Assembly: GCA_017465055.1 (NCBI GenBank)
Contig: JAFTWZ010000007.1
Location: 1 to 39,426, forward strand
Origin: Alistipes sp.
Lineage (GTDB): Bacteria > Bacteroidota > Bacteroidia > Bacteroidales > Rikenellaceae
DNA: 39,426 nucleotides
Direction: 5' to 3'
Below the pieces are notes generated by a model that was given only the letters and a program-made list of their open reading frames with translations, ran no database searches and had not been told where the DNA came from. The position numbers and the translations under genes are program-made. Below, piece after piece: positions 193-29,371 of the stretch (its first letter is position 1; the number at the start of each line of letters is the position of its first letter).

Positions 193-3100
193 CTAAATAC
201 GTATCCCCTTATAAGTTGGAATACTATTTGGTTGAACAACCTTATTGGAATCAGAATCTTGCTTCTGTTCCTGTTCCTCATTTACGGGAGTGGGCGGGGC
301 AAGCTCCAACTGAATCTTACGGTCAAGTGCAGAAAGTTCCGTTTTCAATTGTTTCAGTTCATCTTCCTTTTTCCAAACTTTTCCGGCCAGTTCTTGCAGT
401 TGTGGAATATCCTTTGCCAACGCTTCGTTTTTCTCTTTCCGTTGGGAGATTATACCGGGTATTTTCTCCAACGCATTGAGAAAGTTGGTAGCAGCGGCTT
501 TCGGATCGGCCATTGCCAGATGTCCGTTGTTGAAGGTATATTTGTAATGACCCTCGATTACAAAACGGTTCTCAATGGTAGCCAACCCACTTGCAAGCGA
601 AGTTTCACTGATTACCTTGATAGGGAATCCGTACAATTCACCCACACGGACATACTGACCGCCCGTAGTGGCATTCTTGGCTATCTCCTGCAACTTCTTT
701 CCGATGTTTTTCTCATCAGTAGAAGGGAAGTCGTCCAGCTTTATCAGGTTCAGCCGGTTCCCATCCTTATCGGTCTTGGCAAGAGAAAGGAACTTGTTGT
801 AGTCTGCCGTCATGCCGTCAATGATTACACGGTTGTTGTCATACTCCTTCTGAATGCCATTCAAGGTAAACTCCGCATTTGCCTTGCCCTTGTTGAACGA
901 CTTGCGTTCACCTTCCAAAGAGGCTATACGCTTTTCCAACTTCGCCTTTTCAAGCAGGTCGGTATTGCCTGACAGGATAGCCATATACTCCGAGAAGTTC
1001 ATGCCTGATTTCTCGTCCATAGCACCCTCGTCAATGGTTCTTGCACCCATAGCACCGCTTTTGAGCTGTGTGATGAAGGTCTGCTTGCAATGGAGTAGGT
1101 TGAACTTGTAACTGTCCAATGACTTTTCCACCGCGTAGATGATTACATCCACATTGTCGCCTGCAAAATGCTTGGCAATCTCGTTGCCTGCACGTACGCC
1201 ACGACCGTCACGCTGTGCAAGGTCAGACGGTCGCCAGGGTGTATCCAAATGATGGATGGCCACACACCGTTTCTGGGCATTGACTCCCGTTCCGAGCATA
1301 CTTGTAGAGCCGAACAGCACACGCACCGAACCTTCATTCATGGCGGCTATCACCGCCTTGCGTGCCTTTTCGTTCTTGCACTCCTGAATGAAGCGGATTT
1401 CCGAAGCGGGTATGCCGTAATCCTCCGTCAGCTTACGCTTGATTTCGGAATAGACATTCCAACCGTTACCGGGCTGATATGTACCCAAGTCGGAGAAGAC
1501 GAACTGCGTTCCCTTCTGTGCATCGTACTTGTTGTAGTATTCCGCTATCACTTTGGCACAATGGCTTGCCTTGTTGTCGGGATGGTCTTCGTACTTGTTT
1601 TCATCAATCATACGCATATCCAACGCCATCTTACGGGCATAGTCCGTAGCAATGAGCATCTTCGCCTTTTCTTCCGTTTCAGATAGCGGCAAGCGTCCCA
1701 AAATGGTGGCATTGCCTGTCTTGGCAAACTCCATCAGTCTTTGGATGAAGTCCTCCTGCTCCGGAGTGGGTGGTATATGGTGCAGTATCTCGTTCTTCTT
1801 CGGACGGTCAACACCCACATCCTCCGCCGTGCGATAGTCCGTAATTTCATTGTAGAAGGCAGCCAGCTCCGGCACCTTGATGAAGTAGCGGAAACGTTCC
1901 TTCTGCACGATGTTGTTGGTTACATTGAACTCGAAGTCGGTAGTCTTCTTGGCGAAGATTGCCGCCCACGCATCGAAACAGCGGATGTCCTGACGTTCCA
2001 GTTCCTTCGGACGGAGATACTTGAACAGCAGGTATAGCTCCGTGAGGGAGTTGCTGATGGTCGTTCCCGAAAGGAAAGTAGCCCCCAAGTCCTTACCCGT
2101 GCGTTCCTGTATGGTACGGATGGCAAAGAGCATATTGAGTGCCTTTTGTGAGCCTTCGGAATTGCCCAATCCCGCCACACGGTCGTGTCGGGTGTTGAAC
2201 ATCAGGTTCTTGAACTGGTGGCTTTCGTCCACAAAGAGATGGTCGATACCCATCTGACGGAAGTCCACCACATCGTCCGTGCGGTTCTTTATGGTGTAGG
2301 CTATCTTCTCCAGCTTCACTTCCAAGTTGAACTTGCGTTTCTCCAATCCCTTGAGCATCGCACGGGATATGTCCTTACCCTGCGAACGCAACACCTCCAA
2401 GTTTTCCTCCACCGTATCAAGCTCTGCCTGCAATATGCGTTGCTGTAATTCCGGTGACTGAGGTATCTTGCCGAACTGGTCGTGCGACATGATGACACAA
2501 TCGTAGTCGTTGTTCTTGATGTTGTTGAAGAAACGGACACGGTTCTCGGTGGAGAAATCCTTCTCCGAAGCATAGAGGATACGGGCATTGGGATATGCCG
2601 TCTGATAGGTGGCGGCAATCTCCGCTACATTGGCTTTCAGCCCGATAATCATCGGCTTGTGTGCCAATCCCAGACGTTTCATTTCGTGTGCAGCCATACA
2701 CATGATGAGTGTCTTTCCCGTACCCACCTCGTGGTCACATATCCCGCCGCCGTTCTGTTTCAGCATCCAGACACAATCCTTCTGACTCGGATAGATGCTC
2801 TTCACTCCGTAACGGGAAGAGAGGGCTTTCAAGTCCAAGTCGGGAAAAGTCTGATGGCTTCCGTCATACTTCGGTCGCACGAAGCAGTTGAACTTGCGGT
2901 TATACATATCCGTCAGCGTGTCCTTGAACGACTGCGGCTGTTCCTCTAGCCATTCGGCAAAGCCGTTTCGTATCTCGTCAATCTTGCTGTTGGCAAGCTG
3001 TATGCCCTCGGCATCGCGTACCTTGATGTCGTTGCCGTTCTCGTCCTTGCCGATGCTCTTCATCATATCGGGACAGGTGTTGTGCAAGGCGTGTTTCAGC

Positions 3101-5919
3101 AGGTTCATACCGTCATAACTGCGGTAATATCCCTGCACGGCAAACTCCTTCCAAATCTTCATATTCTTATGTCCGCACTTTACGGAATACTCGTCCAGAC
3201 TCTCCGAGTAGGCGATGTTGATGTCCGTATCGTAGAGCTTGCTCATATAGGCTGCATAAACACCCGTAGGTATCCAGCGTTCCCCGAAGTTGAAGTCAAG
3301 TTCCTCAAAAGTAATCTTCTGCGGCTCTGCCGCCTTCAATGCGGCAAGCGATTCCTTGACACGCTCATCCTCACCATTCTCCTGCATCCATTGCTCGATG
3401 CGTTCCGCCTTTTCAATCACATTGCCTGCGATGAAACAGTCGGCAATCTCATAGTTCTGCACCAATGGATTGTAGTAGATACGACCGGACAAGGCAGTGA
3501 GCAGTTCCTCTTCCGTTCCGTCCGTCAAGCCTCGCATATAGTCGAGGTTTACACCTCCGTATTTGTTCAGCGAAGCCGACAGTGCCTCTTCAGGTGTGTC
3601 CACATGGGTAACGGCATCCACAGCAAATGCCACAGGACGCTCGAAGATGTCAGCCTTCACAAACTTGCCATCCTCGCTACGCTCCAACGACAATATATCC
3701 CGTCCGGTGGCATCCATCATTATCAGTTTCACGTTCAGTCTGCTGTTCAGATTGCCGTAACGTGCTATAAACTCATCGTAATACTTATTGAGGTAGCCAC
3801 GCTGCGGGTCGTTAGCCTCGTGGTTCTCCATTTCATAGGTATATAGTCGCTCATACGCATCACGAAGTGATACATACAGTTGTGCTTTCTCCCGTTGCAC
3901 ACCCGAAAGGTCAAGCGGATGGAACATTGCCCCGTATGTGGTAACATCTTTCAGATAGCCGGGATTGTAGAGAGTATCAACCACCAAAGAGCCGTCACGG
4001 TGGTGCGGCTCCAGCGGACGGTCAAACTCTCTCGGCTGCATCAGTTCCTCTTTCTTCCGCTTCTTCTCTTCCTCGCTTTCCGTATCGGGAAACAGCGACA
4101 GAGTGCCGTCCGATGATACGGCAACGGGAGTTTCAACACTCTGCGTAACCTCTTCCGTAACCTTTTCTGTTGGTGTCGGCACTTCCGTTTTCACTTCAAC
4201 GGCAGGTGCTTCCATCTGCTTCTTCTCCGCTTCCCAACGAGCCTGAGCCTTGGCACGAAGTTCCTTACGTTGTTCGGGTATCAAGTCCATCACCATCTCA
4301 TAGAAGCCGTTGATGGGCGGATTGTCCTCCCAATTGATGGCAGCGTATATATCATCGGGATCAACCGTGCTTGAAGTTGCTTCCGCTTTCGCTTCTTCCT
4401 TTGGCTCTTGAACAGGCGGCTTAACCTCTTCAACCTTCTTGGGTTCTTCTTTAGGTTTGGCAGACATATCAAACAGACTTGGCTGTATCGGTTTACTCTT
4501 GCCTTTCTTTCCACCTTTGGCACTCTTAATTTTCTGCCCGGTTTCTGCTGCCTTGCGTTCATCTTCGGTAAAGTTCCACAGGTCGTAAAGACTCATAACC
4601 GGAGTCCTCGATGATATTATTCCCGAATCGGTGTCAATAACTTTCTTTTCTTCGGCTGGTTTCTCTGCGGGTTTAGGTTGTTCAACGACCAGTTGCCGAG
4701 TTACCTTCGGTGTCTCCACTTTCGGACTTTCCAGCTTAATCGGTTCACTCTTTACCACCTGCACGGTAGCCGAAACATAGCGTTCCATATCCAGACGATT
4801 ACGGAAATCCTCACCGAGCATATTACGCAAGTCTTCGGCAATACCCGGTACACCTCCTTCATGTTGGTACACAAGGGCTGGCTTCCCGTAAGGGTCGGTA
4901 TCGACCTTTCGGGAAGTATGGACAATCCTTTCGGGATGCTCCGAAAGATAGCGGTTTATGCCTATGCCGTCCTGCACGGTAGTCTGTGTGAAGGTCTTGT
5001 CCTCTTCACTCAGTTGCTCCTTACGCTCATTCTTCTGAAGAATGATAAGGTCGCTTCCTACTTCCGTATTGGCTTCGTTCACGAACAGATTGTTCGGCAG
5101 ACGGATGGCAGAAACAAGGTCTGCCTGCTTCATCATCATGAAACGGGTACTGCTGCTTGCTTCCGAGTTCAGTACACCCTGTGAGGTGATAAACGCCACG
5201 ATACCGCCGTCACGCACGGCATCCAGTCCTTTCAGGAAGAAATAGTTGTGTATATGCTTTGCCGACTGCTTGCGGAGCGGATTGCCGAAGGCAAATGCTG
5301 GGTCGAACACGGCAATATCCCCGAAAGGGATGTTTGACATAGCCACATCGAAGCGGTTAAGGAAAGGCTTTTCAATCTTCTCGAAACCTTCAATGCGTAC
5401 CTTCTTGTCGGGATAGAGGTGTTTCAGCAGCTTGCCCGTAAGCAAGTCCTTTTCAAATGCCATTATATCGGCATCGGGATTGTGCTTGACAAGCGAATCC
5501 ACGAACGCACCGCGTCCGGCAGAGGGTTCAAGCAGCATCTTCGGCTGTATGCCGTGGCTGTGCAATACCTCCGCCAATACATCGGTTATCTCCTTCGGTG
5601 TGTAGAATGCCGTAAGTATGGACGCTTTCAGCGAGTCCACATAGCGTTTGTACTCCGTATCGTCCTTGCTGTTCTCACGGATGAGCTTGTGTAGTTCAAC
5701 GGTGTGAGCAAACAGATCGAGGTCGGATTTCGCCCAATGGACGGCATCCGTCAAGTCCTTGGCAGGGTTAAGAATACATTTCAAGCCACCGAAACCGCAA
5801 TATTTCTCCAATACTGCACGCTCTTCGGGTGTGGGTGTACGCTGTTCCCTGTCAAGGGTGAATACCGTCCTAATCGCCTCGATGTTGTCCCGCAGCTTCG
5901 CCTTGCGGTTAAATGCCAT
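193..5919 (-). CDS. N6-adenine methyltransferase-like / SNF2-type helicase fusion of a conjugative element
   Basis: This protein of 1,908 residues has a methyltransferase-like N-terminal domain: an FYTP motif near 105-108, an SAM-binding [10 protein letters not shown] at 130-139, and SNIPFG at 195-200 where active enzymes have NPPF/Y. A low-complexity Pro/Glu/Lys linker spans roughly 400-640. An SF2/SNF2 ATPase follows, with GTGKT near 1066, DESH near 1230, SGTTISNS after it, and motif [13 protein letters not shown] near 1573. The C-terminal ~200 residues are coiled-coil-like. Such proteins are common in Bacteroides conjugative elements; roles in transfer DNA processing or anti-restriction are inferred. 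Its start codon lies inside the last 11 bases of the upstream DUF1896 gene, implying translational coupling. Whether the methyltransferase is active is uncertain because motif IV is altered. Confidence 0.9.
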
Positions 5920-6352
5920 ACTCTTCGAGATAGAGGATTACGGCTCCTGTCAGTTCCGAATATAGCAGGTCATATTCGGGTGATTGGGCGAAGAAATCAT
6001 CTGTCAGGTCGTAGATGGAAAACACCTTATCAATGAGTGGAAGCAGTTTTTCGGCAAAGGCGATACGCTTTGCCTCCGGCACTTCACGGTCAAACTCCCT
6101 TTCAAGCACCTCCATAAGCAGTGTATATTTCGGATAGTGGAGTCCACGCATGAGGTCTGCCATAGCCAGCTCCTGTGCCCCGTCAGCGGAATGACCTTCA
6201 CGGCGTGCCTGCTCATAGACTTCTGCGGCACGGTTGGCACGGGACTTTACGAAGGACAAGTCCTTGGCTTCAACAAAACGATGTTCCTTGAGATAGTTCA
6301 GAAGATAGAGTCCGTAGTAGGACAGTTCTGTTTCATGAATGTTCTTGTTCAT
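5909..6352 (-). CDS. DUF1896 family protein
   Basis: A small, acidic, mainly helical protein of 147 residues with no signal peptide or membrane segment. Its sequence ([15 protein letters not shown] near the start, a middle helix with [21 protein letters not shown]) matches my recollection of the DUF1896 family, found almost only in Bacteroidetes conjugative elements beside topoisomerase and the giant helicase. No biochemical function is known to me. The gene ends by overlapping the helicase start by 11 nt, so the two are surely one transcript. Its leader contains an intrinsic terminator flanked by a 12-bp inverted repeat. Confidence 0.8.
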
Positions 6353-6359
6353 ATTACTT

Positions 6360-6371
6360 TGGATTTAGTGG
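6360..6371 (-). repeat. 12-bp leader motif CCACTAAATCCA, copy 1
   Basis: Exact copy on the minus strand seven bases upstream of the DUF1896 start codon. It is the inverted partner of the copy at 6431-6442. Confidence 0.75.
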
Positions 6372-6397
6372 TATATGGGATGGAATGGATAAGGAAG

Positions 6398-6429
6398 AAA
6401 AAAAGGCACCCGGTATCCCTCCGAGTGCC
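6398..6429 (-). terminator. Intrinsic terminator between topB and the DUF1896 gene
   Basis: On the minus strand GGCACTCGG and CCGGGTGCC form a 9-bp stem with one G-U pair and a 7-nt loop, followed directly by seven Ts (6404-6398). This is a textbook intrinsic terminator. It lies about 115 bases past the topB stop and 50 bases before the next start, so it may both end the upstream operon and gate the downstream one. Confidence 0.85.
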
Positions 6430-6430
6430 A

Positions 6431-6442
6431 CCACTAAATCCA
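6431..6442 (+). repeat. 12-bp leader motif CCACTAAATCCA, copy 2 (inverted)
   Basis: Exact copy in the opposite orientation to copy 1. It abuts the terminator stem and is not next to any plus-strand gene. With copy 1 it forms an inverted repeat around the terminator. Confidence 0.75.
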
Positions 6443-6542
6443 TTGTAAAAAGAAGTATTCCGTAAAGAAAAACCAATTGAACAATGAATCAGTGGCAAAG
6501 GTACTCTTTATTTCTTCCTTATGAAACAATTACACCCGTTTT

Positions 6543-8597
6543 TTACTTCGGGAAGATGAATTGGGTGTTGAAATCGCTGTCAAAGGCAACGATGGCACTG
6601 AATTTCTTGCCCTGCTTGCTCTTGAAACCTTTGAGGACTCCGGTCTTGCCATTTGTAATCAGTTCCTTCATCTCATCATCGGTAAGATCTTTTCCCGCTT
6701 TCTGTCGGAAGATGGGCAAGCCGCACTCCTTGTTGTCGCAACGCACGACCTTATGGAAGAACTGCATCTTTCCCGTTCCACATTTCGGGCAGGTGCATTC
6801 AGACTCTTTGTGTCCGAAAATCTTCTGGCACGAAAGCAGTTCGGAGGTAATCAGACTGGTGTATTCCTCGATACCTCGGCGGAAATCCCTGTCGTCCATC
6901 TCTCCACGCTCGATTTTGGCAAGCGATTGTTCCCATTCACCCGTCATGGCGACATCTGCAATCTGCATCTCCTTGACGACATAGTAGAGTGCCAATCCCT
7001 TTTCGGTAGGTACAAGGGATTTTTCGGCACGCACCACATAGCCGCGTGCAAACAGCGTTTCGATGATAGCTGCACGTGTGGCAGGTGTTCCGATACCACA
7101 GTCCTTGATTGCCTGTCGCATCTCATCGTCCTCAATATCCTTTCCGCAAGTCTCCATTGCTGCAAGCAGGGATGCTTCGGTGTGAAGTGGCTTTGGTTTG
7201 GTCTGTCCGGTGGTCAGTGATGAGGAATTGACAGATACAACATCGCCCTCGTTCCAATCGGCAGGCAGCAGCACATCTTTCTTGTCCGCACCATAGATAT
7301 ATCGCCAGCCCTCCTTCTTGATTACCGAGCCTTTGGCGGTAAAGGTGATACCGCAACAGTCGGCAGTCACTTGGGTTACATCCTTGATGCACTTCTCAGA
7401 AAAGGCTTCCAGCATACGACCGACAATCATATCGTAGATGGTCATATCCTCATTGGACATATGCTTGGGCAATTCACCTGTGATGATAATGGCGTGATGG
7501 TCCGTTACCTTTGAGCCGTCCACGCTACGGCGTGTCGGTTTCTTGATGGAGAGTGCATAGAGACTCCACACCGGACGGTTCTTCAAGGTCTGCAACAGTT
7601 TCGGAATCTCAGCAAAGACATCTTCCGATATATAACGGCTTCCCGTTCTCGGATAGGTGATGAGCTTCGCTTCATAGAGTTTTTGGGCAATGGCAAGTGT
7701 CTGTTCAGCCGTGAAGCCGTGCTTGCTGTTCGCATCCTTCTGAAGAGTGGTAAGGTCATAGAGTAACGGTGTGTCTTCCGTTTTCTCCTTACGGACTACT
7801 TTTGTAAGGGTGGCACTGCTTGTTCCCTTAACCTTATTATATAGTTCCTCCGCAACAGCCTTGTCCTTGTATTTCTCCTCGGAGTCAAACTTCACGACCG
7901 TGCCGTCCTTATGCTCCGTACCGAAATGCAGCTGGTGGAAAGTTTCGGGAGTGAAACGCTTGTTCTCCCAGAAACGCTTGCACACCATAGCAAGTGTAGG
8001 AGTCTGCACTCTGCCGAGTGAATAGGTGCCACGACCTGCGGCAAGCGTGATGGCTTGCGTTGCATTGATGCCTACAAGCCAATCGGCTTCGCTGCGTGCT
8101 TTGGCGGCATAGTACAGATTATCATACTTGCTACCGCATTCAAGGTTCTTCAATCCCTCACGGATAGCCTTGTCTGTAAGCGAACTGATCCAAAGACGGT
8201 CAAATGGTGTGGCACAGCCTATATATTCATATAGGTATCGGAAAATCAACTCACCTTCACGTCCGGCATCGGTAGCCACGATAATCCTGTCGCTCTCGCT
8301 GAACAGACGGGTAATTACCTTAATCTGTTTCATTACTCCGGCATCGGTCTTATAGCCCTTGTCGGTCTTGACTTGTCTGGGAACAAGGGTGAACACCTGC
8401 GGGATGATGGGCAGGTTCTCAGGGTGGAAACCTCTGATGCCATATCCTTCGGGCAGGGCAGGCTGTACCAAATGCCCGAATGCCCAAGTGACGTTGTAGC
8501 CGTTACCGGTGAAGTAACCTTCCTCTCTTTCCGTTGCCCCTACGATGCGGGCTATCTCTCTTGCCACGGATGGCTTTTCTGCTATGATTGTTTTCAT
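6543..8597 (-). CDS. topB: DNA topoisomerase III (type IA), mobile-element form
   Basis: A complete type IA topoisomerase of 684 residues. The Toprim domain starts at MKTIIAEKPS and has the acidic motif TDAGREGE near 109-116. SLGRVQTPTL is at 193-202, the catalytic tyrosine is Y315 in ITYPRTGS, and a C-terminal four-cysteine zinc finger uses C603, C606, C620 and C625. It relaxes or decatenates negatively supercoiled DNA through a covalent 5'-phosphotyrosine. In CTnDOT the topoisomerase III homologue Exc is encoded in the excision operon. Here the gene follows the DUF3945 gene by 54 nt and carries the 12-bp motif in its leader. No damage is visible. Confidence 0.95.
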   Translation of the reverse strand: MKTIIAEKPSVAREIARIVGATEREEGYFTGNGYNVTWAFGHLVQPALPEGYGIRGFHPENLPIIPQVFTLVPRQVKTDKGYKTDAGVMKQIKVITRLFSESDRIIVATDAGREGELIFRYLYEYIGCATPFDRLWISSLTDKAIREGLKNLECGSKYDNLYYAAKARSEADWLVGINATQAITLAAGRGTYSLGRVQTPTLAMVCKRFWENKRFTPETFHQLHFGTEHKDGTVVKFDSEEKYKDKAVAEELYNKVKGTSSATLTKVVRKEKTEDTPLLYDLTTLQKDANSKHGFTAEQTLAIAQKLYEAKLITYPRTGSRYISEDVFAEIPKLLQTLKNRPVWSLYALSIKKPTRRSVDGSKVTDHHAIIITGELPKHMSNEDMTIYDMIVGRMLEAFSEKCIKDVTQVTADCCGITFTAKGSVIKKEGWRYIYGADKKDVLLPADWNEGDVVSVNSSSLTTGQTKPKPLHTEASLLAAMETCGKDIEDDEMRQAIKDCGIGTPATRAAIIETLFARGYVVRAEKSLVPTEKGLALYYVVKEMQIADVAMTGEWEQSLAKIERGEMDDRDFRRGIEEYTSLITSELLSCQKIFGHKESECTCPKCGTGKMQFFHKVVRCDNKECGLPIFRQKAGKDLTDDEMKELITNGKTGVLKGFKSKQGKKFSAIVAFDSDFNTQFIFPK

Positions 8598-8630
8598 TGT
8601 ATTTTTCTTTTCGTTTTACGATTCTACTTT

Positions 8631-8642
8631 TGGATTTAGTGG
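8631..8642 (-). repeat. 12-bp leader motif CCACTAAATCCA, copy 3
   Basis: Exact minus-strand copy in the 54-nt gap between the DUF3945 gene and topB, 33 bases upstream of the topB start codon. Confidence 0.75.
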
Positions 8643-8651
8643 TGGTCGGGA

Positions 8652-10217
8652 TTACATCTTCACGCCCTTGCTTCGCTTGGGCTGTTGCTGCTCTCCCTGT
8701 TTCTGCTCCTGTTGCTGTTTCTTGTCGTCAGGTGCAGTCTGTCCTTGCTTCAAAGGCTCTTTTACGTGCTTAGTTGCTTCGTTGGTCTTGCCCTCGTTGT
8801 TCACGGCTATCTGCGTGCGGCTCTCGTTGGACGGTGCAACTTTCTGTGCTGTGTCGGGATTGTTGTTATAGAGATACGGGCGACCTGCCTCACGATTGAA
8901 CTTCAGGTACATCGTGGCTTCCTTACCCTGTGCATCAACGACCTTTTCAAGTTTCACGGTCTTTCCGGCTACATAGTCGGCTTTCTGTTGGTCATTGAAC
9001 TCGACATTCTTCCATCTCTCGATAGGTTTTATCTCACCGTTCTTCAACCAGTTCTTCTTGTTTCGTTCCAACTTCTCTTCGGCTGTCTCCTGTTTCTTTT
9101 CGGTATCACGCTTTTCTCCCTGCTGTTGTCGGTTGCCGTCCACGGACTGCCTGACGCTTTGCCCTTTGGGAACGAACTCGATACCTCTCTGCTCGACATT
9201 CACCTGCAAGGTGGCTTTGAACTTGCGACCGTTGGAGAGCTGGATTTCCTTGTCAATGAGTGGTGCTCCCGTTTTCAGCAAGTCCATTTCGGGCTGGCTC
9301 AACTTCGTGTTGCCGATGGTATCTTTCCACTTGATACGGCTCACGGGAATACTCGTGATTTCGTTGGTCTGTCGGTCGATGCTCACGTATGAGGGGATAA
9401 TCTCTCCCGTACTCTTGTCCACCAAATCGGCGACACGTCCCATGTTACCCGTTTCACGGAGGTTCCTTGCATCCTCAGCACTGAACTTATACCCCTTGAA
9501 CTCCTCTTTCAGATTGGCTTCCTTCTGAATGAGGTGGGGAACAAGGCGGACACTGCCGTCCTCCTGTTGCTTGAATGATAGTCGGGCTGCCGTCTCAAAC
9601 TTCTCGTCACCGAAAGTCGGTGTTACCGTTACCAAGTTGGACTTGCCATAGTTGAGCATCTTCTCCAAGTCGCCCGACTTTTCCAAATCGTCACGGCGGA
9701 TACCCCAACGCTCTTCCAACTGTTGCCAATTGATCTTGCTCTCGTCAATGGGCTGATAGCCCTTACGCTTGCCCTCTGTCTGGGCTTGTTCCTGTTTCTC
9801 TTCGTTTTCCTTTTTCATTTCTTCTTTGTTTTGAGGTTCTACACTTTTTGCCTGCTCTGCCTTGACCTTGTTTTCGTATTCCGAAATATCGACCTTGTGC
9901 GGTGCAAGCAGTTCCTTGTTCGCTTCGGGATTCTTCAGCAGCTCTTTCATTACGCCGATAAGGTGTTCTGCCTGGTCTGCCGCCACACGGTAAAAACCGA
10001 AGCGGCTGGGTTCCTTACACTGCCGGACGAAATTCTTGAAGAAGTTGTCCAGCACATCGCCGTGTCTGTCGAACTGAAGGAAGTCCTGTGCATTCTCCGC
10101 CTTGGCGGGTGTGCGTTTCGGATTGCCGTCCTTGTCAAGTCCGGCTACTACGCTGATTTCGCCCGTCTTCTCGTCACGGACAATCAGCACGTCCTTGTCT
10201 TTCTTTTTCTGTTCCAT
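8652..10217 (-). CDS. DUF3945/DUF4099-type mobile-element protein
   Basis: A soluble, highly charged protein of 521 residues. The N-terminal ~110 residues look like the conserved DUF4099-type region (sequence DFLQFDRHGDVLDNFFKNFV at about 46-65). A Glu/Lys/Gln-rich linker follows, then repeated DUF3945-like blocks with the pattern of polar strands ending in NGRKFKATLQVN and EATMYLKFNREAGRPYLYNN. The C-terminus is a Gln/Lys-rich tail ending KRSKGVKM. Proteins of this family sit next to topB in Bacteroidetes conjugative elements; no activity is established that I know of, and a nucleic-acid-binding accessory role is only inferred. It starts 15 nt after the upstream HTH gene and is part of the same operon. 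Confidence 0.8.
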   Translation of the reverse strand: MEQKKKDKDVLIVRDEKTGEISVVAGLDKDGNPKRTPAKAENAQDFLQFDRHGDVLDNFFKNFVRQCKEPSRFGFYRVAADQAEHLIGVMKELLKNPEANKELLAPHKVDISEYENKVKAEQAKSVEPQNKEEMKKENEEKQEQAQTEGKRKGYQPIDESKINWQQLEERWGIRRDDLEKSGDLEKMLNYGKSNLVTVTPTFGDEKFETAARLSFKQQEDGSVRLVPHLIQKEANLKEEFKGYKFSAEDARNLRETGNMGRVADLVDKSTGEIIPSYVSIDRQTNEITSIPVSRIKWKDTIGNTKLSQPEMDLLKTGAPLIDKEIQLSNGRKFKATLQVNVEQRGIEFVPKGQSVRQSVDGNRQQQGEKRDTEKKQETAEEKLERNKKNWLKNGEIKPIERWKNVEFNDQQKADYVAGKTVKLEKVVDAQGKEATMYLKFNREAGRPYLYNNNPDTAQKVAPSNESRTQIAVNNEGKTNEATKHVKEPLKQGQTAPDDKKQQQEQKQGEQQQPKRSKGVKM

Positions 10218-10232
10218 TGTTTTTTGAATTTG

Positions 10233-10604
10233 TTATTTGGTTAGTTTATGAAGGCAGGTTTCGTAAAACACTGCATCTCCTTTTCTGAAAATCTCTCCGT
10301 GTTCCTTGATGAACTCCCGCACGTCAGACACCTTGTAGTAGCTCTTTCTGCCTATTCTTATATAGGGCAGTATCTTCATGCTACGGTAGCGTTGCAGGGA
10401 GCGCTTGCTGAATTGCAGAAGCATACACAAGTCCTGATTGTCAAGCAGCCTTTCACCATCCACAAGCGGAATTTCCATCACATCGGAATTGTCCTTCTCG
10501 TACTCCTTGCGGGCAAGCATCGCTATCAGTTTGTCCTGACGGTCAAGACGGGTAGTAATTTCACGCACCCACATCTCGAATGTTCTCTTATCCAGTGCAT
10601 CCAT
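10233..10604 (-). CDS. Excisionase-like helix-turn-helix protein (HTH_17 type)
   Basis: A protein of 123 residues whose second half is a MerR/excisionase-like winged HTH: LLDNQDLCMLLQFSKRSLQR supplies the helices and the wing is KILPYIRIGRKSYYKVSDVREFI. The N-terminal ~45 residues are helical and probably mediate dimerisation. Small proteins of this kind include the CTnDOT excision factors Xis2c and Xis2d, so a role in excision or in controlling the downstream DUF3945-topB genes is likely but inferred. It lies 4 nt after the next HTH gene, forming one operon. Confidence 0.8.
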   Translation of the reverse strand: MDALDKRTFEMWVREITTRLDRQDKLIAMLARKEYEKDNSDVMEIPLVDGERLLDNQDLCMLLQFSKRSLQRYRSMKILPYIRIGRKSYYKVSDVREFIKEHGEIFRKGDAVFYETCLHKLTK

Positions 10605-10608
10605 AAGT

Positions 10609-10968
10609 TCAAAGTTTTTTCATTGTGGGTATTCTTTTTCCCGTTCGCATCATATAGTTCTGCTTGAACTCTTCCAGACGTTTCGGGTCACAGAACACAA
10701 TACTGCTTCTTACCATTCGCTCAACCTCTGACAAGGAGTAGCGGCAGTTGCCACGAACCATGTAGTAGCTGATTTTCTTCTCGCTGCGAAGTCGTTGCAG
10801 GGTGCGTTTGCTTATCTGCAAAAGCGCGGCTACCTGTTCATTGTCAAGAAGTATTTCGGTATTCTCTTCACTCATTCGTTTCTCACTCTTGCGGACAAAA
10901 GCGGCAATACCGTCTATCTTTTCCATCAGCTCCTTGTAGGCTGTACTTTCCATCTGAATTACTTCCAT
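10609..10968 (-). CDS. Excisionase-like helix-turn-helix protein
   Basis: I chose the internal ATG at 10968, giving 119 residues, because the start MEVIQMESTAYKELMEKID lines up with MEVVTIEKKTFEAMLTEIA of the divergent HTH gene at 11174. The open frame extends upstream to 11031 and that longer start is possible. The HTH (LLDNEQVAALLQISKRTLQR) is followed by a wing containing YYMVRGNCRYSLSEVERMV. It heads the minus-strand operon leading to topB. Function is inferred from family resemblance to CTnDOT-type Xis and regulatory proteins. Confidence 0.78.
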   Translation of the reverse strand: MEVIQMESTAYKELMEKIDGIAAFVRKSEKRMSEENTEILLDNEQVAALLQISKRTLQRLRSEKKISYYMVRGNCRYSLSEVERMVRSSIVFCDPKRLEEFKQNYMMRTGKRIPTMKKL

Positions 10969-11143
10969 ATCATGCTCTTGTTTTTCGTTTCTGATGCGAA
11001 TTTCGGGGATTTCCAAAAGGGCGTTTAACAACTCACTAATGACTCACGGAAGATTTTCTTGAATTTGTCCGGCTGTTGCACCGTCAAGTGTGCCAGATAC
11101 GGCAACAAGGGTGAGAAAAACGCAGAATCAGCATATTGCAGGC

Positions 11144-11151
11144 TACTTTTG
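11144..11151 (+). promoter_or_regulatory. Promoter -7 box for the plus-strand HTH pair
   Basis: TACTTTTG fits the Bacteroidetes TAnnTTTG -7 consensus and lies 22 bases before the ATG at 11174. No convincing -33 TTTG is seen. It supports the start at 11174 over the longer open frame, whose upstream ATG would lie before the promoter. Confidence 0.55.
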
Positions 11152-11173
11152 CAGCAAACAAATTTTATCGCGT

Positions 11174-11461
11174 ATGGAAGTAGTAACTATTGAGAAAAAG
11201 ACATTTGAAGCGATGCTCACGGAGATTGCAACGCTTATACGAAAGGTGGACCTGCTTTGCGAGAAATGCAATGACAAGAGACTGCCACAATGGTTGGACA
11301 ATGAAGATGTGTGCCGCAGGCTACGCATCAGTCCAAGAACCTTGCAGACAATGAGGGATACTCATATGATAGGCTGCACACAAATAAATCGCAAGTTCTT
11401 CTATAAGCCCGAAGAGATTGCACGGCTTCTTCCCCTGTTGGAAGATGAAAACAAGACATAA
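11174..11461 (+). CDS. Excisionase-like helix-turn-helix protein
   Basis: A protein of 95 residues beginning MEVVTIEKKTFEAMLTEI; a candidate -7 box lies just upstream. The HTH is WLDNEDVCRRLRISPRTLQT and the wing ends in INRKFFYKPEEIARLL. It is a paralogue of the divergently transcribed gene at 10609-10968. The 31-nt gap to the next HTH gene contains the 12-bp element motif, so the two are cotranscribed. The likely role is control of excision or of the flanking operons (inference). Confidence 0.8.
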   Translation: MEVVTIEKKTFEAMLTEIATLIRKVDLLCEKCNDKRLPQWLDNEDVCRRLRISPRTLQTMRDTHMIGCTQINRKFFYKPEEIARLLPLLEDENKT

Positions 11462-11474
11462 TAAATAACTCTAA

Positions 11475-11486
11475 CCACTAAATCCA
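11475..11486 (+). repeat. 12-bp leader motif CCACTAAATCCA, copy 4
   Basis: Exact plus-strand copy six bases upstream of the ATG of the second plus-strand HTH gene. Its position relative to the start is almost the same as that of copy 1. Confidence 0.75.
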
Positions 11487-11492
11487 TTTTTC

Positions 11493-11792
11493 ATGAACAA
11501 TCATCAAGTAATTACAGCAGACGATGAGCCTATCGCAACTGCATTACATTCTTTAAGAAATGCAACCCGTAAGGTCAGTAGTTTTATACGCCAATATCAA
11601 CCGCCGATGGATGGTGAACGTTATATGACGGATAAAGAGGTTTCGCAAACACTGAAAATCAGCCGTAGGACATTGCAGGAATACCGCAACGAGAAGATAC
11701 TGCCGTATATCATATTCGGTGGAAAGGTGCTGTATCGTGAAAGCGACATCCAAGAAACACTGCAAAGGAACTATCGGAAAGCTATGCCGTAG
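11493..11792 (+). CDS. Excisionase-like helix-turn-helix protein
   Basis: A protein of 99 residues. The N-terminal third is a helical region (ALHSLRNATRKVSSFI), followed by the HTH YMTDKEVSQTLKISRRTLQE and the wing KILPYIIFGGKVLYRESDI. It is more like the protein at 10233-10604 than its direct neighbour, so the locus holds two types of HTH gene on each strand. A strong hairpin follows the stop codon. DNA binding is firm by family; the target is unknown. Confidence 0.8.
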   Translation: MNNHQVITADDEPIATALHSLRNATRKVSSFIRQYQPPMDGERYMTDKEVSQTLKISRRTLQEYRNEKILPYIIFGGKVLYRESDIQETLQRNYRKAMP

Positions 11793-11800
11793 TCCTAAAA

Positions 11801-11838
11801 CAAGAAACGGACAACCTTTATTGGCTGTCCGTTTCTTG
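11801..11838. terminator. Bidirectional terminator between convergent genes
   Basis: CAAGAAACGGACA (11801-11813) and its exact complement (11826-11838) form a 13-bp stem around a 12-nt loop that can close further. On the minus strand it is followed by TTTTAGG. It lies between the plus-strand HTH pair and the minus-strand int-RhuM operon and probably serves both. Confidence 0.8.
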
Positions 11839-11889
11839 TGATATTCGGTTTTGCCACAAATTTATAAGACATTTGTGGCAGAATGATGT

Positions 11890-12288
11890 TCAGCAGCAGT
11901 ACCCGCTTCGGGGTATATGAATAAATATCTGTTCACTCTTGCGATACTTATCATATATTTTATTGACTATCCATTTGCGAAAAACATCGGTAAAGTAGGT
12001 GTCTATGCGGTAGGCTATCGGTATTATAATTTCCAATGAATAGACATCGGCGGTGTTGCCGTTCTCCAAATGGATAGACCGACAGACTTCGTAATCGTTA
12101 AGTATATCCGACTTACGGATTGACTTTATTGCATTACTCACAGCTGTTCCCGTCACATTGAATGCCTCAGCAATTTCCCATACCGTCATCCATATTCCGT
12201 TACCTAATTCGTTACCCATATAGTTACCTGCCGGGGCAGTGGTAACGCTTACCATATTTCCTTCTATCTTGATAATGTTTCGTTTCAT
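11890..12288 (-). CDS. RhuM/Bro-N-like DNA-binding protein downstream of the integrase
   Basis: I chose ATG 12288 (132 residues) because GGAGG stands just before it; the open frame extends to a TTG at 12318 inside the integrase gene. The region VWEIAEAFNVTGTAVSNAI is an HTH. The following part (NDYEVCRS, then VYSLEIIIPIAYRIDTYFT and FRKWIV) closely follows the pattern of RhuM-family and related phage antirepressor N-terminal domains, which carry a YNLDVIIAVGYRV-like core. It begins 14 nt after the integrase stop, so it is cotranscribed with int. Possible jobs are regulation of integration or phage-type control; neither is shown. Confidence 0.6.
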   Translation of the reverse strand: MKRNIIKIEGNMVSVTTAPAGNYMGNELGNGIWMTVWEIAEAFNVTGTAVSNAIKSIRKSDILNDYEVCRSIHLENGNTADVYSLEIIIPIAYRIDTYFTDVFRKWIVNKIYDKYRKSEQIFIHIPRSGYCC

Positions 12289-12302
12289 AACGACCTCCGT
12301 TC

Positions 12303-13535
12303 TTATATCGCTTGACAAATGAAATTCTCCATAGGAGCCAGAGCTTGAGAGAGTTTCTCCATATCATTGCTGACCTTTTCAGCTGTGATTTTGGCGTAAA
12401 TTTGCGTCGTTCTGATGCTACGGTGTCCCAGCATCTTCGACAATGTTTCAATAGGCATATCATTGGAAAGACAGACTGTAGTCGCAAAACTATGGCGACT
12501 CATGTGCCAAGTGACGTTCTTTTCTATACCGCATTTCTTCGCAATAACTTTGATTCCGTTTTTGCAGTTCGGGTAGCAGGGAACGGGTAGCAACTTACCG
12601 TCTTCGGAACATCCTTCATATTTCTTGATGATACGCAAAGGCACTTCAAGAAGGCGAAGATTTGTTTCTGTTCCTGTCTTCTGACGGTTGGTTTTAATCC
12701 ACAAATGTCCGTCAAAAGAGGTCTGCAAGTTCTCCTTTGTCAAGTTTGCCATGTCCGTCCAACTTAGTCCGGTGAAGCAACAGAAGATAAAGAGGTCTCT
12801 GATAAGCTCATAACTTTTCTTCTTGAAACTTCCCTCAATGAGCATCTTTATTTCCTCCTTTGAAAGAAACCCTCGTTTCGTTTCCTCTTTGGTGATGCTG
12901 TACGCATAGAACGGGTCACGTTGCAACCAACCATTATTGATAGACATATAGATGATTCTTTTGAACGGCATCATATATGACCAGATGGTATTGGTGCAAT
13001 GATTCTTCTCTGTGCGGAGGAACAACTCGAAATCCGTGATAAAGGCAGGAGCAAGTTCCTTCAAGGCAATATCGCTGACCTTGTATCGCTGACGGATGAA
13101 CTCCGACAGGTGGTTATATACGGTACAATATTTCCAATAACTGCGTTGACTCTTGATTTTTCCAACTTGCTTTGCATAGTCCTCATTATGCTGACGGAAT
13201 ACGGCAAGCAGTGTTTCGTGGTTCATACCCATACCCAAGAAGGCATTTCGTACCTTCTCTGCGGTAACATAGTTGTCCTTATCACAAATATCCTGATAAG
13301 CCTTGTTAATACCCACTCGGATTTTGTCAAGCATTCGGTTAGCCTCCAATGCTACAACACTTCTTCCCGTCATTCTTCCGGTCTTGACATCCCAATGCTT
13401 TTCATCGACATCAAGTTTGCAACTGAACTGTGAAATCTTACCGTTCACAGTGATACGACACATTACAGGTACAAGCCCGTTGCTCTTCGGAGCATTACGC
13501 TTCAAGTAAAATAGGATTCTGAATGTACTTCTCAT
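12303..13535 (-). CDS. int: Tyrosine recombinase (integrase), IntDOT type
   Basis: The protein has 410 residues: an N-terminal arm-binding domain (about 1-100), a core-binding domain (about 105-205) and a C-terminal catalytic domain. Visible catalytic residues are K286, H344 and R347 (HMSRHSF), H371 (LGHRS) and the nucleophile Y380 (TTQIYAKI). The first conserved arginine is replaced by Ser258 in CFTGLSWTD. To my knowledge IntDOT of CTnDOT has the same Ser and near-identical spacing, so this is the element's integration and excision recombinase and it is intact. The RhuM-like gene follows at 14 nt. A -7 box lies just upstream. Confidence 0.95.
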   Translation of the reverse strand: MRSTFRILFYLKRNAPKSNGLVPVMCRITVNGKISQFSCKLDVDEKHWDVKTGRMTGRSVVALEANRMLDKIRVGINKAYQDICDKDNYVTAEKVRNAFLGMGMNHETLLAVFRQHNEDYAKQVGKIKSQRSYWKYCTVYNHLSEFIRQRYKVSDIALKELAPAFITDFELFLRTEKNHCTNTIWSYMMPFKRIIYMSINNGWLQRDPFYAYSITKEETKRGFLSKEEIKMLIEGSFKKKSYELIRDLFIFCCFTGLSWTDMANLTKENLQTSFDGHLWIKTNRQKTGTETNLRLLEVPLRIIKKYEGCSEDGKLLPVPCYPNCKNGIKVIAKKCGIEKNVTWHMSRHSFATTVCLSNDMPIETLSKMLGHRSIRTTQIYAKITAEKVSNDMEKLSQALAPMENFICQAI

Positions 13536-19747: not shown

Positions 19748-21058
19748 ATGGCAAAGTTTATTGTTGAGGGTGGCCACCGCCTTAAGGGTGAGATAATGCC
19801 TCAGGGTGCTAAGAACGAGGCACTGCAAATAATATGTGCTGCGCTGCTCACATCGGAGCGCGTGGTGCTTCACAACGTCCCCATCATAGCAGATGTTATG
19901 CAGCTGCTCGAGCTTATGAAGAGGATGGGCGTCAAGGTCGAGCGTCTCTCCGACGACGATTTTGCGCTCCAGGCCGATAATATAGACCTCGACTACCTCC
20001 GTACGGCCGACTACCACAAGCGCTGCCGTCGCCTGCGTGGCTCGGTGATGATGATTGGCCCGCTACTTGCGCGCTTCGGCATAGGCTTTATGCCCAAGCC
20101 CGGAGGCGATAAGATTGGTCGCCGCAGATTAGATACCCACTTCCTCGGCTTCCAGAAACTCGGCGCCGACTTCAATTTCGACCTCAGCGACGAGTTTTAT
20201 ACCGTTGAGGCTAAGCGTCTTAAGGGTACATATATGCTCCTCGACGAGGCCTCGGTGACGGGTACGGCAAATATCGTGATGGCAGCGGTGTTGGCCGAGG
20301 GTCGCACGACGATATACAACGCCGCCTGCGAGCCCTACCTTCAGCAGCTCTGCAAGATGCTCAACCGTATGGGTGCCAAGATTTCAGGCATAGCCTCAAA
20401 CCTGCTCACCATCGATGGCGTAGAGTCGCTCGGTGGCACTGAGCATACTATGCTCCCTGATATGATCGAGGTGGGAAGTTTCATTGGTATGGCCGCTATG
20501 ACGCGCTCCGAACTGACCATTAAGAATGTGTCGTACGACAACCTCGGCATTATACCTCAGCAGTTTGCGCGTATGGGTATACGCTTCGAGCAGCGTGGCG
20601 ACGACATATATATCCCCACGCAGGAGAACTATAGCATCGAGAGCTTTATCGATGGCTCTATTATGACCATCGCCGATGCTCCCTGGCCAGGCCTTACGCC
20701 CGACCTATTGTCGATATTCTTGGTTGTAGCTACTCAGGCTAAGGGCTCGGTGCTTATCCACCAGAAGATGTTCGAGAGCCGACTCTTCTTTGTCGATAAG
20801 CTCATAGATATGGGCGCTCAGATTATCCTCTGCGACCCTCACCGCGCCACAGTTATTGGTCACGACCACCAGCATCCACTTAGAGCTGCAAGTATGACTT
20901 CCCCAGATATACGTGCTGGCGTGGCGCTACTTATTGCGGCTATGAGTGCCGAGGGTACGAGCACCATTCAGAATATCGAGCAGATAGATCGTGGATATCG
21001 CGATATCGATGGCAGGCTTAATGCGTTGGGGGCTAAGATATTGCGTCTCGACGAATAG
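19748..21058 (+). CDS. murA: UDP-N-acetylglucosamine 1-carboxyvinyltransferase with Asp active-site residue
   Basis: This 436-residue enzyme transfers enolpyruvate from PEP to UDP-GlcNAc, the first committed step of peptidoglycan synthesis. The EPSP-synthase-like fold is shown by GAKNEALQIICAALLTSE (20-37), GGDKIGRRRLDTH (119-131) and the late DIRAGVALLIAAMSAEGTS. The loop residue that is Cys115 in E. coli is Asp121 here. Enzymes with Asp there are active but not alkylated by fosfomycin. The rest of the protein is complete, so this is a functional variant. Two hairpin repeats follow it. Confidence 0.96.
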   Translation: MAKFIVEGGHRLKGEIMPQGAKNEALQIICAALLTSERVVLHNVPIIADVMQLLELMKRMGVKVERLSDDDFALQADNIDLDYLRTADYHKRCRRLRGSVMMIGPLLARFGIGFMPKPGGDKIGRRRLDTHFLGFQKLGADFNFDLSDEFYTVEAKRLKGTYMLLDEASVTGTANIVMAAVLAEGRTTIYNAACEPYLQQLCKMLNRMGAKISGIASNLLTIDGVESLGGTEHTMLPDMIEVGSFIGMAAMTRSELTIKNVSYDNLGIIPQQFARMGIRFEQRGDDIYIPTQENYSIESFIDGSIMTIADAPWPGLTPDLLSIFLVVATQAKGSVLIHQKMFESRLFFVDKLIDMGAQIILCDPHRATVIGHDHQHPLRAASMTSPDIRAGVALLIAAMSAEGTSTIQNIEQIDRGYRDIDGRLNALGAKILRLDE

Positions 21059-21062
21059 CCTC

Positions 21063-21185
21063 TTTGTTGTGATAAGGGGTCATCTGTGAAGCTTTGCTTG
21101 TCTGAAAAATGCTCATTTACCTCGAGTAAACTCCGCTTTTTCAGTCTGCGACAAATCTTCAAATCTAACCCCTTCTAACAACAAA
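21063..21185 (+). repeat. About 122-nt hairpin repeat, copy A
   Basis: Outer arms TTTGTTGT...AAGGGGT and ACCCCTT...AACAACAAA enclose a second stem CTGAAAAA/TTTTTCAG. The core is TGCTCATTTAC, a loop, then AGTAAACTCCG. Copy B follows after 8 bp and copy C is at 29208. It starts 4 bp past the murA stop. Confidence 0.8.
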
Positions 21186-21193
21186 TAGGGTTC

Positions 21194-21314
21194 TTTGTTG
21201 TGATAAGGCATCATCTGCGGCGTTTAGCTTGTTTGCAAATTCCTCATTTACCTCAAGTAAACTCCGGATTTGTAAACTTCGACTAACCACCACATCTAAT
21301 GCCTTTTAACAAAA
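21194..21314 (+). repeat. About 122-nt hairpin repeat, copy B
   Basis: The same layout as copy A, but with outer arms AAGGCAT/ATGCCTT and an inner stem GTTTGCAAAT/ATTTGTAAAC. The core CTCATTTAC...AGTAAACTCCG is conserved. It ends 36 bp before tdk. Confidence 0.8.
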
Positions 21315-21350: not shown

Positions 21351-21923
21351 ATGTTTTTAGAGAATAACAAACACAAGGGCTGGATCGAGGTGATATGCGG
21401 CTCGATGTTCTCGGGTAAGACCGAGGAGCTTATCCGCCGTATGAAGCGTGCGCAGTTTGCTAATCTAAGGGTCGAGATTTTCAAGCCCTCGATCGATGTT
21501 CGATACTCCGAAGAGGAGGTGGTGTCGCACGATGCCAATGCCATACAATCTACGCCCGTAGAGTCGGCGCAGAACATCCTACTTATGACTGCCGATGTCG
21601 ACGTCGTAGGTATCGACGAGGCGCAGTTCTTCGATGACGGCATAGTAGATGTATGCCGCAAGCTCGCCGATAGCGGTATCAGAGTAATTGTCGCAGGTCT
21701 CGATATGGACTATATGGGTGTACCCTTTGGCCCTATGCCTGCGCTGATGGCTACGGCCGAGTATGTCACCAAGGTGCACGCCATATGCGTACGCTGTGGC
21801 GACTTAGCCAACCACTCGCACCGCCTTACCGAGGACGATAAGCAGGTGCTCTTGGGCGCACACGACACCTATCAACCAATATGCCGCCACTGCTTCAACG
21901 AGCTGAGGGGCAAGAAGGAGTAG
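21351..21923 (+). CDS. tdk: Thymidine kinase (type II)
   Basis: This 190-residue salvage enzyme phosphorylates thymidine with ATP. The P-loop GSMFSGKT is at 17-24, the catalytic E90 is in [10 protein letters not shown], and the lasso-domain zinc ligands are C146, C149, C178 and C181. The tsaC-like gene follows at 26 nt and probably shares its transcript. No good TAnnTTTG box is seen in the short gap after hairpin repeat B, so the gene may be read through from upstream. Confidence 0.95.
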
Positions 21924-29207: not shown

Positions 29208-29331
29208 AAGAGGCTGAATAAAAAGTGTATTTTGTCGTTATGCTCGCCTTCAAAATGCTCATTTACGCAAAGTAAACTCCGCTTTTTCAGGCTTCGCAAG
29301 CCTAAAACTACATCTTTTTATTCAACCTCTT
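29208..29331 (+). repeat. About 122-nt hairpin repeat, copy C
   Basis: Outer arms AAGAGG-TGAATAAAAAG and CTTTTTATTCA-CCTCTT enclose the same core as copies A and B (TGCTCATTTAC, loop, AGTAAACTCCG). The outer-stem sequence differs from copies A and B but still pairs. It lies 21 bp after a stop codon, as copy A follows murA. Confidence 0.8.
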
Positions 29332-29339
29332 GGCAAAAC

Positions 29340-29371
29340 GGGGATGGCAAATTTACTTTTTAGTCATCCCC
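29340..29371 (+). terminator. Terminator after the large lipoprotein gene
   Basis: GGGGATG and CATCCCC form a 7-bp stem around an 18-nt T-rich loop, followed by TTGTTG. It comes 8 bp after hairpin repeat C. Confidence 0.55.

Follow-up and report, generated by a model that had tools for sequence, protein, structure and literature searches.

A hairpin repeat of an Alistipes genome, probably a MITE-like mobile element with a centre resembling that of ERIC

Two hairpin repeats that stand in tandem behind a putative murA gene of an Alistipes sp. probably represent a MITE-like mobile element, non-autonomous and about 120 bp long, which belongs to a very widespread ERIC-like superfamily and whose centre would be conserved for its own spread more than for the host. 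The copies were found in a window of 39,426 nucleotides (contig JAFTWZ010000007.1), the stretch of DNA from which the analysis started.

Copies in the window and in its genome

A first-pass annotation, made from the letters of the window, had described tandem copies of about 122 nt separated by an 8-bp gap, and both are present in the sequence. Copy 1 (TTTGTTGTGATAAGGGGT...ACCCCTTCTAACAACAAA; 21063-21185, plus strand) belongs to the subfamily AAGGGGT/ACCCCTT with the loop CTCGA, and its left end is located 4 nt past the stop codon at 21056-21058. After the spacer TAGGGTTC (21186-21193) follows copy 2 (21194-21314, plus strand), which belongs to the subfamily AAGGCAT/ATGCCTT with the loop CTCAA and has a degenerate right end. 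The stem pairs named for the two copies were found as well, one pair in GTTTGCAAAT/ATTTGTAAAC being G-T. The third copy, which had been placed at 29208, exists on the plus strand, but it starts at 29210 and ends at 29329; its subfamily has the ends GAGGCTGAATAAAAAG / CTTTTTATTCAACCTC. The core hairpins of the three copies, on the folding (minus) strand, span 21098-21148, 21229-21279 and 29244-29294 and score 64.0, 59.8 and 67.7 bits, respectively, with our covariance model R1, in which copies 1 and 2 are themselves rows; copy 3 is not a row, and its sister copy L002 is. Beyond copy 3 lies a second short, terminator-like hairpin (GGGGATGGCAAATTTACTTTTTAGTCATCCCC; 29340-29371, plus strand), and a hairpin resembling it follows many copies of the same subfamily. 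Because this hairpin is outside the element, we rejected an intrinsic terminator as the full explanation of the repeats.

The tandem copies are located between two ORFs on the plus strand: one of 436 aa (19748-21058), which we take to be murA from the reading of its sequence in the first-pass annotation, and one of 190 aa (21351-21923), presumably a thymidine-kinase gene (tdk) by reading alone, which served as the orthology anchor and is present in 52 of 61 genus genomes. Elsewhere in the window, positions 193-13535 resemble an integrative element with a tyrosine integrase (12303-13535), a topoisomerase-like protein and a 1908-aa protein containing N6-methylase and helicase domains; several small ORFs are scattered between its large genes.

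With up to 3 mismatches, the core pattern matched three times in the window and never in 100 shuffles. In the whole genome (2.13 Mb in 49 contigs, 84% complete), a 3-mismatch search gave 63 matches, 58 of them with zero mismatches, and the looser pattern CTCANNTACN{3,6}GTANNCTCCG gave 73, compared with 0 for the reversed control. The first-pass annotation had named a lack of further genomic copies, or stems without covariation, as outcomes that would refute it; neither was observed, since further copies exist and their stems covary, as described below. The element is short, has inverted ends and occurs in many copies, as a MITE does. These copies split into subfamilies that differ in their ends and stems, one of which has several copies at contig ends, as near-identical repeats do. 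The tandem copies represent two subfamilies, both of which have members at other places in the genome; the differences between their stems are thus differences between subfamilies and did not necessarily arise between copies 1 and 2.

Several variants were observed in the same genome. At loci L350-L352, L358, L360, L361 and L363-L365, near position 1501 (378 in L361), elements with the same ends have another centre; their ends are ATTTGTTGTGA.AAGG or near it, the centre is GGGNNNTAC...GTANNNCCC-like, and TA mostly precedes them. Judging from their sequences, ends and centres seem to have been exchanged. Since the same ends carry a quite different core, the conserved core is not required by every element with such ends. 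Long forms of the third subfamily (L004, L036, L037, L054) have in common a right arm that is about 75 nt longer (GCGCCGCGATTAAGTGAG...). In L004, L005, L014, L020, L028, L036 and L041 the left arm is replaced by a sequence resembling another subfamily's right end (TCTAATGCCTTCTCCCAACAAAT), and we read these copies as chimeras or fused tandem arrays.

A conserved core with covarying stems

The core reads CTCA-NNTAC-loop-GTANN-CTCCG, in which the bases of the internal loops are fixed and the stems covary; CTCA, TAC, GTA and CTCCG were imposed by the search patterns, so that the 3-mismatch search of the own genome is the sole test of their constancy. To describe the structure, 306 copies were reduced to 81 representatives, of which 55 had at least 5 of 7 arm pairs and 52 were aligned (L129, L142 and L181 were left out). 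The rows had been pre-filtered for arm pairs and the test consequently leans towards paired arms; within this frame, 85% of the cells are paired in the 52 diverse rows, 266 cells are changed on both sides (94 when shuffled), and the covariation score of 0.533, compared with 0.150 when shuffled and at most 0.131 when slid, bears out the selection on structure for which the first-pass annotation had argued. Pairs changed on both sides number 15 versus 13.4, a difference without significance (44 of 500 shuffles). In the 81 unfiltered representatives, arm pairs 1-5 are paired in 78, 61, 67, 58 and 58, and a bulged T that no pattern demanded is present in 75. Of 158 hits read among the matches listed, 156 have complementary bases at the two free stem positions.

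A second module flanks the core. When 285 copies were reduced to 78 elements, GCGTT was found on the left in 39, at 18 nt in 27 of these (shuffled, 6 of 78), and GCCTTG was found on the right in 34, at 17-18 nt in 31 of these (shuffled, 1 of 78). GCGTT and the shorter GCCT occur together in 35 of the 78.

Which strand folds? If one strand does, half-changed pairs are expected to appear as G.U on that strand. Counted once per cluster, position and type, A.C on the plus strand, which is G.U on the minus strand, was observed 207 times, versus 94 for G.T. When sets were compared separately, using 254 distinct copies flanked on either side by 45 nt or more, the excess was missing from G464 taken alone (15 versus 19; 1 versus 3) and from G467 taken alone (3 versus 4; 4 versus 11). 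The minus strand (GGAG...TGAG) is predicted to be the stabler in 96 of 99 clusters, by a mean of 9.9 kcal/mol, and still in 85 of 99 when the core is replaced on both strands. A plus-strand RNA as the structured form is disfavoured both by the excess of A.C and by this predicted stability. Recent private variants have no significant strand asymmetry (25 versus 18; 45 versus 32), a result to be expected of drifting resident copies. Conservation of the fold is accordingly seen between lineages and is not visible within resident copies.

Distribution across bacteria

Core matches were found in 33 of 61 relatives, namely in 29 of 37 genomes of the genus (the own genome included) and in 4 of 24 elsewhere in the order; single matches among them may be due to chance, because the reversed control also has some. 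A stricter core with TTTAC was found in the own genome alone among 395 genomes of the phylum, so that its presence is patchy. In a collection of 84,980 species, the scan of which demanded G-C adjoining the core, at least 117 stretches hold a core match, including those of Pseudomonas, Halomonas, Mesorhizobium, Klebsiella, Nitrosomonadales, Nitrospirales, Desulfobacterales, a Rickettsia endosymbiont, Tannerellaceae, Prevotellaceae and others. The core together with the second module recurs in Pseudomonas, rhizobia, Nitrospirales, Desulfobacterales, the Rickettsia endosymbiont and other Bacteroidota, and seven viral contigs carry a core match. Twenty genomes picked from the hits hold 1 to 83 copies each; these genomes, like the 117 or more loci, were selected because each holds a hit. 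The ends of the element vary by lineage, and the core is shared between lineages.

Evidence for mobility

A mobile hairpin family was among the candidates of the first-pass annotation, and two observations bear it out. First, the element is present or absent at an orthologous site, as a MITE is. We found 52 tdk loci and read 30, of which 27 have murA adjacent. The core is present in one of these 27 spacers, that of the own genome, and the end word TTTGTTGTGATAA in three: that of the own genome, that of L234, where the centre is another, and that of L230, where the element is broken. The remaining 24 spacers have lengths of 17-152 nt. Inside the broken element of L230 (genome G489) we noted a repeat-like TGTCATTCCGAGCG...GAGGAATCTC.

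Second, target duplications were found in two Bacteroidota genomes, G467 and G471, both outside the window's own genome. With 4 bp, the best of seven flank widths tried, identical flanks were found at 6 of 16 elements of the Prevotellaceae genome G467 (shuffled mean 1.7, p 0.0005) and at 3 of 4 elements of G471 (p 0.04). In the Desulfobacterales genome G468, TA flanks at 6 of 9 elements are not significant (p 0.11). Of the loci fetched, 16 of 20 in G467, 4 of 6 in G471 and 9 of 11 in G468 had recognised ends. Elements of the Prevotellaceae host have the ends GGGAACCTCTAAAAA, with 4-bp duplications, and the ends found in the own genus include GAGGCTGAATAAAAAG. G471 also holds core-less forms of 35 bp, which consist of the ends only; 9 of 12 have identical 4-bp flanks (shuffled 0.9, p 0.0002), these 12 having been fetched from at least 17. 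Counted by eye, at least 17 short end pairs stand against 12 core matches in this genome. The core-less forms, one of which occurs in the own genome too, appear to have arisen by deletion between short direct repeats located at the hairpin's foot. As a separate observation, the core is partly duplicated (GTGCTCATTTACTGCGCTCATTTAC and variants) at L273, L285, L289, L291, L383 and L384 of G467, in a step-like doubling of one half of the hairpin.

An autonomous partner with the ends of the element was not seen by eye in the own genome (84% complete), and none was present among the matches listed for the incomplete assemblies of G467 and G471. Five DDE_Tnp_1 matches in G467 and G468 have no such ends flanking them within the stretches examined, and G471 has no DDE_Tnp_1 match. 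Near a 473-aa transposase frame of G467 (L388) the end word occurs twice, once exactly and once with 3 mismatches; since both occurrences are downstream of the gene, it is not flanked, and we rejected it as the partner. Might the element instead move as single-stranded DNA by means of a tyrosine (HUH) transposase, as REP/REPIN do with RAYT? An imperfect, bulged and strand-specific hairpin would fit this. However, the own genome, at 84% completeness, has no match to Y1_Tnp, a profile that matches 5 of 14 control genomes, so that RAYT was rejected as the partner and the REP-associated transposase suggested by the first-pass annotation was not found there. Moreover, the combination of 4-bp duplications and inverted ends observed in two other genomes is not expected of an HUH mechanism. 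We regard movement of this kind as very improbable.

Position behind genes

In the own genome, 63 of 65 copies are outside called ORFs, the ORF calls behind all counts of position being mechanical. Where both neighbours are in tandem, 19 copies have the sense of the upstream gene versus 4 with the opposite sense (p 0.003); counted by locus, the numbers are 12 and 4 (p 0.08). Among 123 copies at public loci, 43 lie no more than 110 nt behind a sense stop codon, whereas 22 face one in antisense (p 0.013), and in 14 of these 43 the distance from stop to core is exactly 58-59 nt, where 1.2 would be expected if the copies were spread evenly over the range. Orientation between tandem neighbours at the public loci is not significant (27 versus 16; 20 versus 14).

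Left ends that abut stop codons in this way, together with the favoured sense orientation, would suit an RNA element selected by the host, in which the hairpin in the 3' UTR controls mRNA decay or processing through RNase E or III, as has been argued for ERIC in Yersinia. Effects of ERIC in Yersinia are described in passages of PMC2229807, which concern upstream transcripts, and of PMC10969869. In the favoured orientation, however, the conserved fold lies on the strand that is antisense to the upstream gene; elements lose their cores and retain their ends, as in G471; the orientation bias of the own genome amounts by locus to just 12 versus 4; and the core is absent from 26 of the 27 orthologous murA-tdk spacers. 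Both the identity of the folding strand and the loss of cores make it less likely that the core serves the host. Given that copies sit behind stop codons, and given the effects reported in Yersinia, we retain a host-selected RNA element as an alternative and consider it unlikely.

A proposed model of propagation

How might a mobile element conserved for its own spread work? Its inverted, lineage-specific ends are likely to be the sites that a transposase supplied in trans recognises and cuts, a presumed enzyme that would make the short target duplications; the combination of lineage-specific inverted ends and duplications argues for transposition in trans. The centre consists of two conserved internal-loop modules on one long hairpin. 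Its conserved one-strand fold, 5'-CAAGGC..GCGGAG-NNTAC-loop-GTANN-TGAGCA..AACGC-3', would be recognised, as single-stranded DNA or RNA, during mobilisation. Resident copies drift, can lose the core and are often retained directly behind stop codons. Because the one-strand centre is common to phyla and lost from resident copies, we infer that selection acts during propagation; and since resident copies drift or lose the core while the consensus recurs across phyla, selection is most likely on the propagation of the element itself. Several observations tell against this model: the lack of an autonomous partner in the sequences covered, the restriction of the duplications to two other genomes, the TA flanks of G468 that miss significance, the two sets without the A.C excess, the patchy distribution, and the different core between the same ends in the own genome.

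Comparison with known systems

Correia/NEMIS, RIME and the Rickettsia palindromic elements are candidates for comparison, as intergenic palindromes of similar size that occur in or near core-bearing lineages. YPAL (RU-2) is likewise a palindromic miniature element, and it sits close behind stop codons. The RU-2 sequence printed in PMC2759123, inspected by eye, has no such core. REP/REPIN with RAYT resemble the element as palindromic, extragenic, strand-specific hairpins; in contrast, the element is 3-4 times longer than a REP unit, no RAYT was found in the own genome, and two other genomes have target duplications. Membership in an Rfam family was rejected, because neither the window nor 15 public loci gave a match to the element at gathering score; the other hits were weak.

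The first-pass annotation knew of no named family that fits, but ERIC (IRU, RU-1) has the same centre, second module and folding strand. ERIC has been described in enterobacteria and Vibrio and has been in use for bacterial typing for decades. It is 127 bp long, compared with about 122 bp for the element, and both are long, intergenic, multi-copy hairpins with a GAG-NNTAC-4 nt-GTANN-TGA centre, GCGTT on the left, GCCTTG on the right and the same strand stabler. The element differs from it in its terminal sequence (ERIC ends TATAC..), in its bulged G, which ERIC lacks, in the distance of GCGTT from the core (18 nt, versus 11 in ERIC) and in its hosts, which are mostly outside enterobacteria and Vibrio. 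In the part of PMC2759123 that prints the ERIC consensus, GCGTT is located on the left at 11 nt and GCCTTG on the right at 19 nt, and the same strand of this consensus is predicted to be the stabler (-61.8 versus -45.2 kcal/mol). Model R1, which was built without ERIC, scores 21.5 bits at the centre of an E. coli ERIC, on the corresponding strand (E 6.7e-5 in 3 kb, or about 0.1 when scaled by proportion to a whole E. coli genome), and the next-best match has 12.1 bits. An ERIC sequence used as query was found in 5375 of 5426 E. coli genomes. On 19 loci, most of them chosen for other-centre elements, R1 gave 8.8-9.9 bits at the positions of those elements (L363, L365 and, presumably of the same kind, L357), 13.1 bits for another hairpin, and 64.6 and 67.5 bits at two loci with true copies.

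Could the likeness to ERIC, and among phyla, be a convergence of long hairpins without common descent? The missing bulged G, the different distance of GCGTT and the moderate R1 score of ERIC would fit this, as would the fact that GCGTT and GCCT are both present in just 35 of the 78. On the other hand, identical bases are unpaired at identical places, the same strand folds, and the second module stands at a fixed distance far more often than in shuffled sequences, while R1 gives other-centre elements and another hairpin lower scores than it gives ERIC. Convergence is, in our judgement, improbable.

We tentatively suggest, as a possibility that goes beyond the mobile element itself, that ERIC and the elements of Bacteroidota, Pseudomonadota, Nitrospirales, Desulfobacterales and the Rickettsia endosymbiont form one ancient superfamily, in which the two-module, one-strand fold would be a mobilisation signal for a conserved factor and the ends would be exchanged to suit the available transposase. 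According to the review PMC2229807, the way in which ERIC-type elements move lacked experimental support. The part of PMC2267715 that concerns them lists ERIC and several structured repeat families, each of a single species, and we found no union of these families in the open-access literature, including parts of PMC3733652, PMC2573895 and PMC5082802. If true, a cross-phylum fold whose ends can be swapped would unite several local repeat families in a single system open to testing, with the GGAG/TGAG and CAAGGC/AACGC loops of one strand as the places to look and with R1, which we supply, as the means of finding further members. It would also bear on why hairpins of this kind gather behind stop codons.
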